Below, piece by piece: positions 6,431 through 33,154 of a DNA stretch of 64,000 bases. The stretch is from Verrucomicrobiota bacterium (GTDB lineage: Bacteria; Verrucomicrobiota; Verrucomicrobiia; Limisphaerales; UBA11358), in contig JAGWNY010000003.1 of assembly GCA_028872915.1 (NCBI GenBank), forward strand, positions 1 through 64,000, read 5' to 3'. The first letter of the stretch is position 1, and each line of letters opens with the position of its first letter. Both the position numbers and the translations under genes were made by a program. The notes beneath the pieces are model-generated. The model saw only the letters and a list, made by a program, of their open reading frames with translations. It did no database searches and had not been told where the DNA came from.

Positions 6431-8847
6431 AAATAACGTTCAGCCGCCTCAAACGTTACGTTGATTTTGACTGGCCGCCCGACGAACTGGCTGAACGGCT
6501 TACCATGCTCGGTATCGAGGTGGAAAACGTCCGCAAAGTGGCCGGCGAATTTGAGGGCATCGTTGTCGCGCAAATTCTCTCGCGCGATGCCGTTCCCGGA
6601 TCGGACAAATTGTCGGTGTGCAGGGTCGCCGATGGCAAGATGGAGCGGACGATCATTTGCGGCGCGCAAAATCACAAGCCGGGGGACAAAGTTGCGCTCA
6701 TTCTGCCCAATTTTGCGCTGCCAATGAAGCCGGGAGACAAGGAACCGTTTGTCATCAAGGAACGCAAGGTTTTCGGCATCACGAGCCAGGGGATGATGTG
6801 TTCGCCGCAGGAACTGGGGCTGGCTGATGCCGTGGACGGACTGCTCATCCTGCGGGCGGACGCAAAGATCGGGCAGTCTTTTGCCGAATACCTGGGGCGG
6901 GCGGGCGGTGACGTCGTTTACGACCTGGAGATCACTCCCAACCGCCCCGATCTAAACAGTTGGGCGGGGATTGCCCGGGAAATCGGGGCACTCACCGGAA
7001 ACGCAGTGAAGCTGCCGGAGCCGGCGTGTCCTGAATCGGCCGGGCGCGTGGCCGATCTGGTTGGCGTCCGCATCGAAGACACCGGCTTGTGCGGCCGCTA
7101 CACGGCGCGCGTGGTTCGGGGCGTTAAAATCGGACCGAGTCCGGATTGGCTGCGCGAGGCGCTTGAAAAGGCGGGTGTCCGCAGCATCAACAACGTGGTT
7201 GATGTGACAAACTACGTGATGCTGGAAACGGGCCAGCCGCTCCATGCCTTCGATTATCATTTGATTTCGGGCGAGGGCAAGCCAACCATCATCGTGCGGC
7301 GGGCAAAAGAGGGTGAAGCTTTTGTGACGCTGGACGGCCAAAAACGGGCGCTCACGGGGGACATGCTGGTGATTGCGGATGAAAGCAAGAGCATCGCGCT
7401 GGCCGGCGTCATGGGCGGACAAAATACCGAAATCGGAAATGAGACGAGGGATGTTCTAATTGAGAGCGCGTATTTTTCGCCCACCAACATCCGGCGCACC
7501 AGCAAGGCGCTTGAGTTGCGGAGCGAGTCGAGCTACCGGTTTGAGCGGGGGGCGGACATTGGCGTTTGCGACCATGCCAGCCGCCGCGCCGCGCAATTGA
7601 TTTTGGAAACGGCCGGCGGCCAACTGGCCGGCGGCGTTGTGGATGAATATCCGGCGCCGGCCAGGCCGGCGGAGATTGCGCTGCATTTTCAACGGACAAC
7701 GGCGCTGCTGGGCATCCCGATTTCTCACGCCGAACAAATCACGCATTTGACCCGGCTGGGTTTGACAGTCACGGAACAAAGCCCCGGCGTTTGCTCGTTC
7801 CAGGTTCCCACTTTCCGGGTGGATTTGAAGCGCGAGGTGGATTTGATCGAGGAGGTGGGACGGCTGCATGGCGCGGAAAAAATTCCGGCAACGCCGCCGC
7901 GGGGCGCCGTGGGCGCAAATCCTTATGACGCCGTCCATGATCAAATCAGCGCGGCGCGGCATATCCTGGCGGCATTGGGCCTGAACGAGGCGCAGGGCCA
8001 GACGCTGCTGGCAGCCGCGGAATGCCGGGGCGTGGAAAACGGGATCGTTCTGGCGAACCCTCTGAGTTCGGACATGGATACGTTGCGCCCCAGCCTGCTG
8101 CCGGGGCTTATTCATTCGCTACGGCATAACGTCAGCCGCAAAAGCGATGACATTGCGTTGTTTGAAATTGGCCGCGTGTTTTTAAAAGCAAATGGCGGCG
8201 GTTCCCGCGAAGAACGGCGCGTCGCCCTTGCGCTGACCGGCCGGCGCGCCCCCGGCTTTTGGAGCGGAACGGAGCGGGACGCGAAATTCGACATCCATGA
8301 TCTGAAAGGGCTGGTGGAAGATTTCTTTGAGCAATTCGGCATTCGCGGCGCGGCATTAGTCCGCCGCGAGGCGGCCACGGCGCTGTTCATTGAATCGGCG
8401 GGAATTGCGCTGGGGGGGAAACTGCCCTTGGGCGAGATGGGACAACTATCGCCGTTGTTGGCGCGAAAATATGATCTGCGCGATCCGGTCTTTTTGGCGG
8501 AATTAAACCTGGACCAATTGCTGGCCCGGCGCAATCCCTCCAAATCTTTCAGGCCATTGCCCTCGTTTCCATCCAGCCGGCGGGACGTGGCCATGCTTGT
8601 GCCCGAATCCGCCACGCACGATGCCGTGCTGCAAACCGTCAAACAGGCGCGTCCGCCGCATCTCGAAAGCGTCGAGTTGTTCGACGTGTTTCGCGGAAAG
8701 AACGTTCCGGCCGGCCAAAAGAGCGTTGCCTACGCGTTCACCTATCGTTCCGCCGAACGGACGTTGACCGACGCCGAAGTCAGCGCCGCGCACGCCAAAG
8801 TTGTGGAAGCCCTGAGACGGCAATTGAGCGCCTCAGTGCGGGAATGA
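6427..8847 (+). CDS. pheT: Phenylalanine--tRNA ligase beta subunit
   Basis: This 806-residue subunit of the (alpha-beta)2 enzyme charges tRNA-Phe. The order of domains is visible. An N-terminal EMAP/tRNA-binding OB fold (residues about 40-150) contains PGSDKLSVCRV. The B3/B4 editing region follows (GVRSINNVVDVTNYVMLETGQPLHAFD). The B5 region comes next, then the core, and a C-terminal anticodon-binding FDX-ACB domain (RPLPSFPSSRRDVAM). The start at 6427 overlaps the preceding membrane-protein stop as ATGA. The catalytic alpha-subunit gene pheS is not in the window, so the usual pheST pair is either split or separated by the inserted membrane gene. Confidence 0.96.
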   Translation: MKITFSRLKRYVDFDWPPDELAERLTMLGIEVENVRKVAGEFEGIVVAQILSRDAVPGSDKLSVCRVADGKMERTIICGAQNHKPGDKVALILPNFALPMKPGDKEPFVIKERKVFGITSQGMMCSPQELGLADAVDGLLILRADAKIGQSFAEYLGRAGGDVVYDLEITPNRPDLNSWAGIAREIGALTGNAVKLPEPACPESAGRVADLVGVRIEDTGLCGRYTARVVRGVKIGPSPDWLREALEKAGVRSINNVVDVTNYVMLETGQPLHAFDYHLISGEGKPTIIVRRAKEGEAFVTLDGQKRALTGDMLVIADESKSIALAGVMGGQNTEIGNETRDVLIESAYFSPTNIRRTSKALELRSESSYRFERGADIGVCDHASRRAAQLILETAGGQLAGGVVDEYPAPARPAEIALHFQRTTALLGIPISHAEQITHLTRLGLTVTEQSPGVCSFQVPTFRVDLKREVDLIEEVGRLHGAEKIPATPPRGAVGANPYDAVHDQISAARHILAALGLNEAQGQTLLAAAECRGVENGIVLANPLSSDMDTLRPSLLPGLIHSLRHNVSRKSDDIALFEIGRVFLKANGGGSREERRVALALTGRRAPGFWSGTERDAKFDIHDLKGLVEDFFEQFGIRGAALVRREAATALFIESAGIALGGKLPLGEMGQLSPLLARKYDLRDPVFLAELNLDQLLARRNPSKSFRPLPSFPSSRRDVAMLVPESATHDAVLQTVKQARPPHLESVELFDVFRGKNVPAGQKSVAYAFTYRSAERTLTDAEVSAAHAKVVEALRRQLSASVRE

Positions 8848-31253: not shown

Positions 31254-32138
31254 TCACAAGGCATGAGGCGGTTTTCCTCCGATCCGCCGGGCGCGCCATC
31301 TCTTGAAATTCACCACCGTTGGATCGAGATAAACCGAACCATCGCGCAACTTTGTTGTTCCAACCAGCGTTGTGTTGTAGGTTTCGGTGCGGCGGCTCCC
31401 GGTAACCGCGTTCACTTTGCTTCCCACATATTTCCAATCAGGCCGTGGATGGGTATGTCCATTTAAGACGGCGACCATGATGTGGACAAATTTGACGTGG
31501 CAGCTTTCACGATCTATTCGGTAACAAGCAACCAGGTGCCATCCAGAACGTCCATTGTGGCTTTCCCCGCCTTTGCCAATTTGAATCGTGGATTTCACTT
31601 CCAAACCTTCGGGCTTTCCACGTGTCAGTACTTTCGGATTAATCAAATCAGGATACGCCTGATGCGAATTGTGCTTGTAAGGGGAATGCTCGTTGATGGC
31701 GTCGCATAAGATGTTGGAAATCAAGCCGCTGAAATTATTGCCTTGAATGTAATCAAACAATGGACGACGGCCATGCGCCCGCAAATTGCTGTTAATCAGG
31801 GCAAAAATGCGTTGGGATTCATTCATCGCGGCTTCCAGGTGCGGTACTTTCAACCCCGGTGGCAACGGAACATTTGGACGGAAATAACCCTCGTTGGCCG
31901 TCGGAATTGGTGCAACATCCCGTTCCGCAAATGCCCCGGCTACCAGTTGTTGGACTGGCGCATCCAACGACTTGGCCAGCGCGGCCAAAACGTCTATTGA
32001 GAAATTTTCCCGGCCATTTTCAAGACTGGACAAGTATTGATAGCTGATTCCTGTTTTACGCGCCAGCCGGTCCTGAGTAAGATTCGCCTGTTCGCGCAAT
32101 TGGCGGATATATCGGCCCAAAGCGGCTTTGGTGTCCAT
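31254..32138 (-). CDS. Restriction endonuclease with N-terminal HTH regulator domain
   Basis: A 294-residue protein. Residues 8-66 form a Cro/C1-type helix-turn-helix (LTQDRLARKTGISYQYLSSLENG). Beyond a linker, residues about 100-275 resemble a PD-(D/E)XK nuclease: D164 in AYPDLINPK, then E180 and K182 in GLEVKST, followed by GESHNGRSGWHLV. Divergent pairing with a DNA methyltransferase 65 bp away supports a Type II endonuclease. The HTH part resembles controller (C) proteins, so it may also regulate the pair. Its base composition looks less GC-rich than the neighbours, a sign of transfer. The recognition site is unknown. Confidence 0.82.
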   Translation of the reverse strand: MDTKAALGRYIRQLREQANLTQDRLARKTGISYQYLSSLENGRENFSIDVLAALAKSLDAPVQQLVAGAFAERDVAPIPTANEGYFRPNVPLPPGLKVPHLEAAMNESQRIFALINSNLRAHGRRPLFDYIQGNNFSGLISNILCDAINEHSPYKHNSHQAYPDLINPKVLTRGKPEGLEVKSTIQIGKGGESHNGRSGWHLVACYRIDRESCHVKFVHIMVAVLNGHTHPRPDWKYVGSKVNAVTGSRRTETYNTTLVGTTKLRDGSVYLDPTVVNFKRWRARRIGGKPPHAL

Positions 32139-32192
32139 TTCGCCTTTGGTTGATACAGGAATTGAACTTGATTGTCTTTCGCCTATAGTTGA
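32138..32192. promoter_or_regulatory. Paired 16-bp direct repeats, candidate C-box operators
   Basis: TTTCGCCTTTGGTTGA at 32138-32153 recurs as TTTCGCCTATAGTTGA at 32177-32192 (14 of 16 identical). The copies start 39 bp apart, nearly four helical turns. They fill most of the short divergent promoter region between endonuclease and methyltransferase, and the first abuts the endonuclease start codon. The HTH domain of the endonuclease is the obvious candidate binder. Confidence 0.55.
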
Positions 32193-32203
32193 AATTTGAA
32201 TCC

Positions 32204-33154
32204 ATGTTTCATTTGGAACAGACCGACTGTTTTGACTGGCTCCGGCAATGTCCGCCGCATTCCATTCACGCCGTCTGCACGGACCCGCCGTACGGAATTT
32301 TGGAATTCACGGAAAAGGAATTGGCCAAACTTCGCGTTGGCAGGGGTGGCGTTTGGCGGCTGCCGCCGAAAGTAGGCGGCAGCCACCGCGACCCGTTGCC
32401 CCGGTTCACGGTGCTTACCGAAGAACAGAAACAACATCTACGGGATTATTTTCGTGATTGGGGGAGATCGGTTCTGCCCGCTCTCGTGCCCGGCGCTCAT
32501 GTCTGTGTGGCGGGACATCCCATTCTACAGCATCACGTGCAAGGTGCGATGGTGGAAGCCGGTTTTGAAGTGCGCCCCGCAATCATGCGGCTTTATTACA
32601 GCTTCCGGGGCGGCGATCGCCCAAAAAATGCCGAAACAGAATTTCCAGAAGTTTGCGTCAGCCCAAAAGGCGCGTACGAACCCTGGATGTTGTTTCGCAA
32701 GCCAATCGAGACAAAAACCGTTGCCGAAAACCTTCGCAAATGGAAAACCGGCGGGCTGCGGCGGCTTTCCACGGACCGGCCGTTGCCCGACGCCATCGCC
32801 AGCGGGCGCACTCCCAAACGGGAAGAAGCCATTTCGGATCATCCGTGCCTGAAACCGCAACATTTCATGCGGATCATCGTTCGGGCATTGCTCCCCTTGG
32901 GGGAGGGAAAAATTCTCGATCCATTCATGGGATCAGGCTCAACCATTGCCGCTGCCGAGGCCGTGGGCTACCCGTCGATCGGCCTGGAAATGGACGCGGA
33001 GTATTTTCGACTTGCGCAAAAAGCCATCCCGCGTCTGGCCGCCCTGTATCCGTCTTTCGAAGGACAGGAGATTGAAGTTGAGTTAAACGGCCACGTCGAA
33101 TGCGAATCCGGGCGCCAAACGGCATTCGTACTGGCCGAACGCGGCGTTCAATAA
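32204..33154 (+). CDS. DNA methyltransferase (beta-class, DPPY)
   Basis: A 316-residue S-adenosylmethionine-dependent DNA methylase. Motif IV DPPYG is at residues 27-31 and motif I DPFMGSGST at 239-247; this order is that of beta-class N6-adenine/N4-cytosine enzymes. DPPY (not SPPY) slightly favours adenine. The ATG at 32204 is used; an in-frame TTG five codons earlier lies inside the second operator-like repeat. It should protect the host from the divergent endonuclease. Confidence 0.88.
   Translation: MFHLEQTDCFDWLRQCPPHSIHAVCTDPPYGILEFTEKELAKLRVGRGGVWRLPPKVGGSHRDPLPRFTVLTEEQKQHLRDYFRDWGRSVLPALVPGAHVCVAGHPILQHHVQGAMVEAGFEVRPAIMRLYYSFRGGDRPKNAETEFPEVCVSPKGAYEPWMLFRKPIETKTVAENLRKWKTGGLRRLSTDRPLPDAIASGRTPKREEAISDHPCLKPQHFMRIIVRALLPLGEGKILDPFMGSGSTIAAAEAVGYPSIGLEMDAEYFRLAQKAIPRLAALYPSFEGQEIEVELNGHVECESGRQTAFVLAERGVQ

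Follow-up and report, generated by a model that had tools for sequence, protein, structure and literature searches.

The window, a stretch of 64,000 nucleotides from a contig of a Verrucomicrobiota bacterium, encodes what we regard, at a probability of roughly 0.7, as a two-gene type II restriction-modification (R-M) system whose restriction enzyme has a controller (C) domain of its own and would regulate itself through palindromic operators. The domain make-up, predicted fold, invariant residues, gene pair and conserved operators with their spacing were computed directly (Table 1). An HTH-nuclease fusion had been proposed in the initial annotation, and the corresponding 294-residue ORF (CR) is present, head-to-head with the gene of a β-class DNA methyltransferase (M), with 65 bp between them when ATG 32204 is taken as the M start. 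This start codon, chosen by comparison among loci, is the likely one; a second M frame from TTG 32189 is longer and also open, but overlaps the operator. With ATG 32204, the earlier description of a β-class M divergent across 65 bp is borne out, M matching PF01555 (N6_N4_Mtase) in Pfam at E 1.5e-17 and MTase_II in PADLOC at 2.5e-89. A restriction-enzyme-like nuclease gene stands beside its own M gene in 28 of 28 fused loci, which points to a type II R-M system, and CR appears to be a C-REase fusion, that is, a C-protein-like HTH and a restriction enzyme in a single reading frame, as judged from sequence and structural models. The proposal that operators, nuclease and regulator are contained in a two-gene unit likewise withstood the sequence and model tests available for its structural claims.

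Table 1. Features of the CR/M locus, in window coordinates.
Feature	Position	Strand	Basis
Fusion gene CR, controller-type HTH + nuclease, 294 aa	31254..32138	-	Full-length relatives in 27 further loci
HTH domain of CR, about residues 6-69	31932..32123	-	Pfam HTH_3, residues 11-63; Foldseek C.BclI rank 1, C.AhdI rank 10
Nuclease domain of CR, residues 80-294	31254..31901	-	Conserved residues and fold prediction
Predicted catalytic residues of CR	D164 31647-31649; E180 31599-31601; K182 31593-31595	-	
β-class DNA methyltransferase M, 316 aa from ATG 32204	32204..33154	+	PF01555; PADLOC MTase_II
Distal operator (putative), imperfect palindrome TTTCGCCTATAGTTGAAA, centred between 32185 and 32186	32177..32194	.	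28/28 loci
Proximal operator (putative), weaker copy, over CR -10 box and start codon	32138..32155	.	0/300 shuffles as good
Predicted M -10 box TATAGT, inside distal operator	32184..32189	+	28-locus comparison
Predicted CR -35 box AAGACA, at operator edge	32173..32178	-	AAGAC in 27/28 loci
Predicted CR -10 box TATCAA, 17-bp spacer	32150..32155	-	-10-likeness peak in groups A and B

Relatives of the fusion were collected at two levels. When 194 genomes from the phylum were searched, the source genome included, 76 gave matches, mostly through the HTH only, and full-length CR matches came from three genomes besides the source. A scan of genome contigs with a four-sequence profile gave 32 loci, 27 of which match in both HTH and nuclease and were kept (28 with the window); the HTH-only matches L056-L060 were excluded, and L010-L012, apparently identical to L048, L052 and L053, were counted once. 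The hosts are mostly Verrucomicrobiota bins, with Kiritimatiellota, Elusimicrobiota and Desulfobacterales bins also represented. All 27 further loci carry a divergent homologous M, truncated by the contig end in L042 and L050, and the CR frame is intact in 25. It is broken in L050 (466-636, 57 aa) and L051 (6001-6639, 213 aa), beside an intact operator and an M match, and enzyme loss or assembly error are both possible. Downstream of its intact fusion gene, L030 contains a partial nuclease match (7580-8026, 48% identical to residues 139-294), which may be a remnant or another copy. The loci form two groups of 14: group A, the clade of the window (the window, L029-L038, L050, L051 and L055), and group B (L039-L049 and L052-L054). 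In the R tree, built like the R alignment from 26 of the 28 rows (L050 and L051 omitted), 12 rows including the window split from the 14 others with a support of 100/100; the M tree, also of 26 rows (L050 and L042 omitted), is similar, but its midpoint root leaves L040, L043 and L045 on the same side as the window.

The N-terminal part of CR contains a Cro/C1-type HTH, which had been placed at residues 8-66 and was recovered by Pfam as HTH_3 at residues 11-63 (E 7.5e-15). Among the 37 Foldseek matches to the whole CR model at E ≤0.001, C.BclI ranks first and C.AhdI tenth, and C.Esp1396I is also included; ordinary Xre regulators (ClgR, DdrO, SinR) are mixed into the same list, and in PADLOC HTH_VI (7.7e-15) outranks Control_protein (5.2e-10). 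Because Xre regulators and HTH_VI match as well, the HTH by itself leaves C-protein identity unsettled, and the argument for a C protein is therefore carried by the operators.

The C-terminal part had been described as a PD-(D/E)XK-like nuclease with D164, E180 and K182. These three residues are invariant in all 26 intact fused proteins and in all 33 aligned nuclease domains, seven of which are unfused, and the structure prediction suggested at the outset as a check of the fold gave a restriction-enzyme-like one. Mean pLDDT was 87.1 and pTM 0.72 for full CR, and 90.5 and 0.87 for the nuclease domain modelled alone; residues 71-80, where confidence drops to a mean of 68, are likely a linker. 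In Foldseek, the nuclease domain alone had no match below E 0.001; NaeI came top (E 2.1e-3, TM 0.45 by query length), followed by SfiI, EcoRV, SwaI and HincII, and ranks 1-32 were all restriction enzymes, the predicted fold most resembling the NaeI/SfiI/EcoRV kind. A PvuII structure is present in the PDB, and PvuII was absent among the best 50 of the 163 matches. At the sequence level, the window nuclease domain alone matched 0 Pfam families up to E 1, NCBIfam matches to CR were confined to about the first 80 residues with none in the nuclease part, and profiles A1 and A5 retrieved zero restriction enzymes from PDB sequences up to E 10. PADLOC REase_II weakly matched two unfused relatives (2e-5 and 3.4e-4) and did not match the window CR at 0.01.

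Twelve unfused relatives (L001-L004, L013 and L076-L082, L005 standing outside the count) come from small Citrobacter and Klebsiella plasmids, Gordonia pGRS1, Acidiphilium pACMV5 and the viral contigs L076-L082. Their nuclease is 25-31% identical to that of CR in 11 loci, L013 being linked through closer kin, and their M shows 47-57% identity; M is convergent in 10, in tandem in 2 and divergent in none. Existing annotation labels these nucleases hypothetical proteins, with a DNA methyltransferase alongside. No HTH match was obtained at E 1e-4 for 11 of the 12. In Acidiphilium pACMV5, a separate HTH gene overlaps the nuclease gene by 4 bp. Upstream of this HTH gene, ACTTATAGTC and ACTCATAGTC occur at a distance of 15 bp and closely resemble the GACT-tat-AGTC boxes given in the available text of PMC4824078. 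The nuclease family thus has separate, fused and absent controllers, as exemplified by pACMV5, the fused loci and the HTH-less kin, respectively. Genes annotated as Multiubiquitin, E2/UBC and ThiF occur near the R-M genes of pACMV5 (L001, 5557-7631). One near-identical unfused nuclease and M pair (L002, 2290-4010; L004, 2690-4410; L005, 311-2031) is found on small plasmids of Citrobacter, Pseudomonas and Raoultella, with further matches in Klebsiella; its nuclease is annotated as a hypothetical protein beside a DNA methyltransferase, and the pair constitutes an unnamed type II R-M system.

Between CR and M, two near-identical 16-bp repeats had been noticed, and both are present (TTTCGCCTTTGGTTGA at 32138 and TTTCGCCTATAGTTGA at 32177, 39 bp apart, with 14 of 16 letters alike). 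Their reading as direct repeats was rejected in favour of two imperfect palindromes, since the dyad of the distal copy is kept in all 28 loci. One imperfect palindrome resembling TTCNNCTATAGNNGAA is common to all 28 CR/M loci, and the anchor pattern TATAGNNGAA[AT]GAC has exactly one match in each of the 28 intergenic regions. Twelve of the 16 positions from -8 to +8 are invariant across the 28 distal sites, a count that includes the letters fixed by the pattern, so that conservation of the anchor letters is partly by construction; the TTC arm, which lies outside the anchor, is invariant and complementary to the GAA arm in every one of the 28 loci. Pairing between the arms is absent at position 5 throughout group A, and at position 4 it is seen in about 1 of the 14 loci of this group. 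The distal operator (-8 to +12) has a mean pairwise identity of 0.90, vs 0.27 (-40 to -12) and 0.39 (+13 to +29) around it. Putative operators thus located upstream of CR's own gene are the feature expected of a C-REase fusion. The source genome contains the distal operator as the sole copy at zero mismatches and two copies with one mismatch, as against one for a reversed control pattern, and these counts do not support a host-wide regulon. An exact operator scan of viral contigs returned 11 stretches, none with an R, HTH or M match at E 1e-4.

The predicted promoters are interlocked with the distal palindrome. The M -10 box within it reads TATAGT in 22, TATACT in 4 and TATAAT in 2 of the 28 loci. 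Towards CR, AAGAC starts at +8 from the operator in 27 of 28 loci, and the -10 score for CR reaches its maximum at +31 in group A (3.64 of 6, mean 1.63) and in group B (3.71 of 6, mean 1.72), of which only group B tests the CR -10 box independently, because in group A the box coincides with the proximal operator. Matches to the CR promoter elements are weak. In all 28 loci, the predicted transcription start is followed by the CR start codon at a distance of 0-5 nt. The centre of the distal operator falls near -42.5 of this predicted promoter, which would be an activator position. The M start codon lies 18-28 nt from the operator centre in 13 of 14 group A loci, L034 having no measured start. 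In group B this distance is 9-12 nt for 13 of 14 loci, with L046 fitting by way of an upstream ATG, so that M would be leaderless there. A TTGACA-like M -35 box at an 18-bp spacer scores a mean of 3.86 of 6 in group B; no M -35 box was found at a 16-18-bp spacer in group A, the window included.

The second operator distinguishes the two groups. With a matrix built from the distal sites, the best downstream match in group A lies at +39 in 12 loci and at +38 in 2; the window copy at +39 outscored 300 of 300 shuffles, and 13 of the 14 group A loci have a proximal site that none of 300 shuffles matched (L037 being poor, p 0.063), in a test that ignores relatedness among loci. Its lower score relative to the distal site is partly by construction, because of the origin of the matrix. 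None of the 14 group B loci has a second operator at 38-39 bp; L045 has a downstream match at +32 (p 0.007).

From this arrangement we infer HTH binding, activation, repression and their timing, along with nuclease activity at a recognition site. On cell entry, M would be made at once, its promoter having the -10 box within the distal palindrome, and CR would at first be expressed from its weak promoter with the -35 box AAGACA. As CR accumulates, an HTH dimer would occupy the distal palindrome. It would thereby block the M promoter and, from a centre near -42.5 relative to the CR start, aid polymerase at the CR promoter; delayed cutting would result from this proposed positive feedback on CR. 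In the window's clade, the weaker second palindrome, which spans the CR start codon and -10 box, may cap CR once it is abundant.

The same palindrome could act without direct activation if CR only repressed M, and the CR promoter rose as competing polymerase was removed from the M promoter. Such promoter exclusion is in keeping with an operator that covers the M -10 box, with the overlap of the predicted promoters and with the half of the loci that have the distal site only, and it has a precedent in C.Kpn2I and its own gene, as described in the available text of PMC6237814; we nevertheless judge it unlikely, as the spacing of the operator to the CR -35 and -10 boxes is constant in both groups, beyond what exclusion requires. 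Still less probable is plain autorepression, with the HTH holding both CR and M at low levels and neither activation nor delay: the position of the proximal operator, across the CR start codon and -10 box, would suit it in the window's clade, but the single site of group B lies upstream of the CR -35 box, off the promoter core.

Accessory DNA-contact domains occur in some restriction enzymes, and the HTH might be such an extra domain, serving target choice or an effector site rather than gene regulation. This is very improbable in our estimation: the nuclease seems not to need the HTH, given the 11 of 12 unfused relatives in which none was matched, and the conserved palindrome adjoining the gene has no other zero-mismatch copy in the genome.

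As a candidate recognition site, CAGCTG was considered for its rarity near carrier loci (9 seen vs 48.3 expected in 263 kb). It was set aside, GTGCAC and GTCGAC being as low as CAGCTG in the window's clade, GTCGAC being rarer than CAGCTG in the source genome, and 2 of 10 fusion-free genomes having fewer CAGCTG per base than 3 of 4 carriers (G168, among these ten, has an unfused relative). In the source genome (3.19 Mb), both GTCGAC (10 occurrences) and CAGCTG (52) show a marked shortage.

C-REase fusions are an established kind of protein. According to the available text of PMC3850674 (Liang and Blumenthal, 2013), CR.NsoJS138I and four other fusions are of the PvuII type, CR.NsoJS138I works both as an endonuclease and as an activator (23-fold with a lacZ reporter), and PvuII relatives occur in separate-C, fused and no-C classes. 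In these accounts, PvuII-type fusions share with the window CR an N-terminal Cro/C1-type controller and a C-terminal restriction enzyme in one polypeptide, operators upstream of their own gene, and a nuclease family with separate, fused and absent controller versions; M is divergent in some of them, compared with 28 of 28 loci here. In the profile searches of PDB sequences up to E 10, the window nuclease family had no match to a solved restriction enzyme. The operators differ as well, TTCNNCTATAGNNGAA in the window family contrasting with GACT-N3-AGTC in the PvuII type, whose C-box is described in PMC4824078 as two neighbouring palindromes of this form; window-family operators are single or 38-39 bp apart, and those of the window, with another sequence and 39 bp between them, fall outside the PvuII-type C-box definition. 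A parallel in wiring is EcoRV, for which the available text of PMC6237814 reports a high-affinity distal site that overlaps the M promoter, activates c-res and represses met, and a low-affinity proximal site that represses c-res. In the window, site positions and matrix scores agree with this layout, and similar affinities and effects might be expected. The predicted window nuclease also shares the EcoRV kind of fold, whereas C, R and M are separate in EcoRV and C is fused to R in the window. No C-REase fusion beyond the PvuII type was found in the open-access literature searched, and the window family looks like a new nuclease family within this known kind.

We give even odds to a broader reading, namely that this is an R-M lineage, with no PvuII link detected, whose enzyme is its own transcription factor and half of whose loci are one-operator switches, the lone palindrome combining the M -10 box with a repressor site for M and an activator site for CR, and dimerisation of HTH and nuclease possibly competing to set the delay. 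The 2013 report on C-REase fusions (PMC3850674) covers, in its available text, one nuclease family with five proteins. The loci described here offer a natural series for tests of the delay, from two operators through one operator and a separate C with tandem boxes to no C, and this series bears on whether fused proteins need a wider operator spacing, as suggested in the same text. With its 26 intact members and highly conserved operator, the second family described here suggests that the joining of controller and enzyme is a repeated and stable solution.
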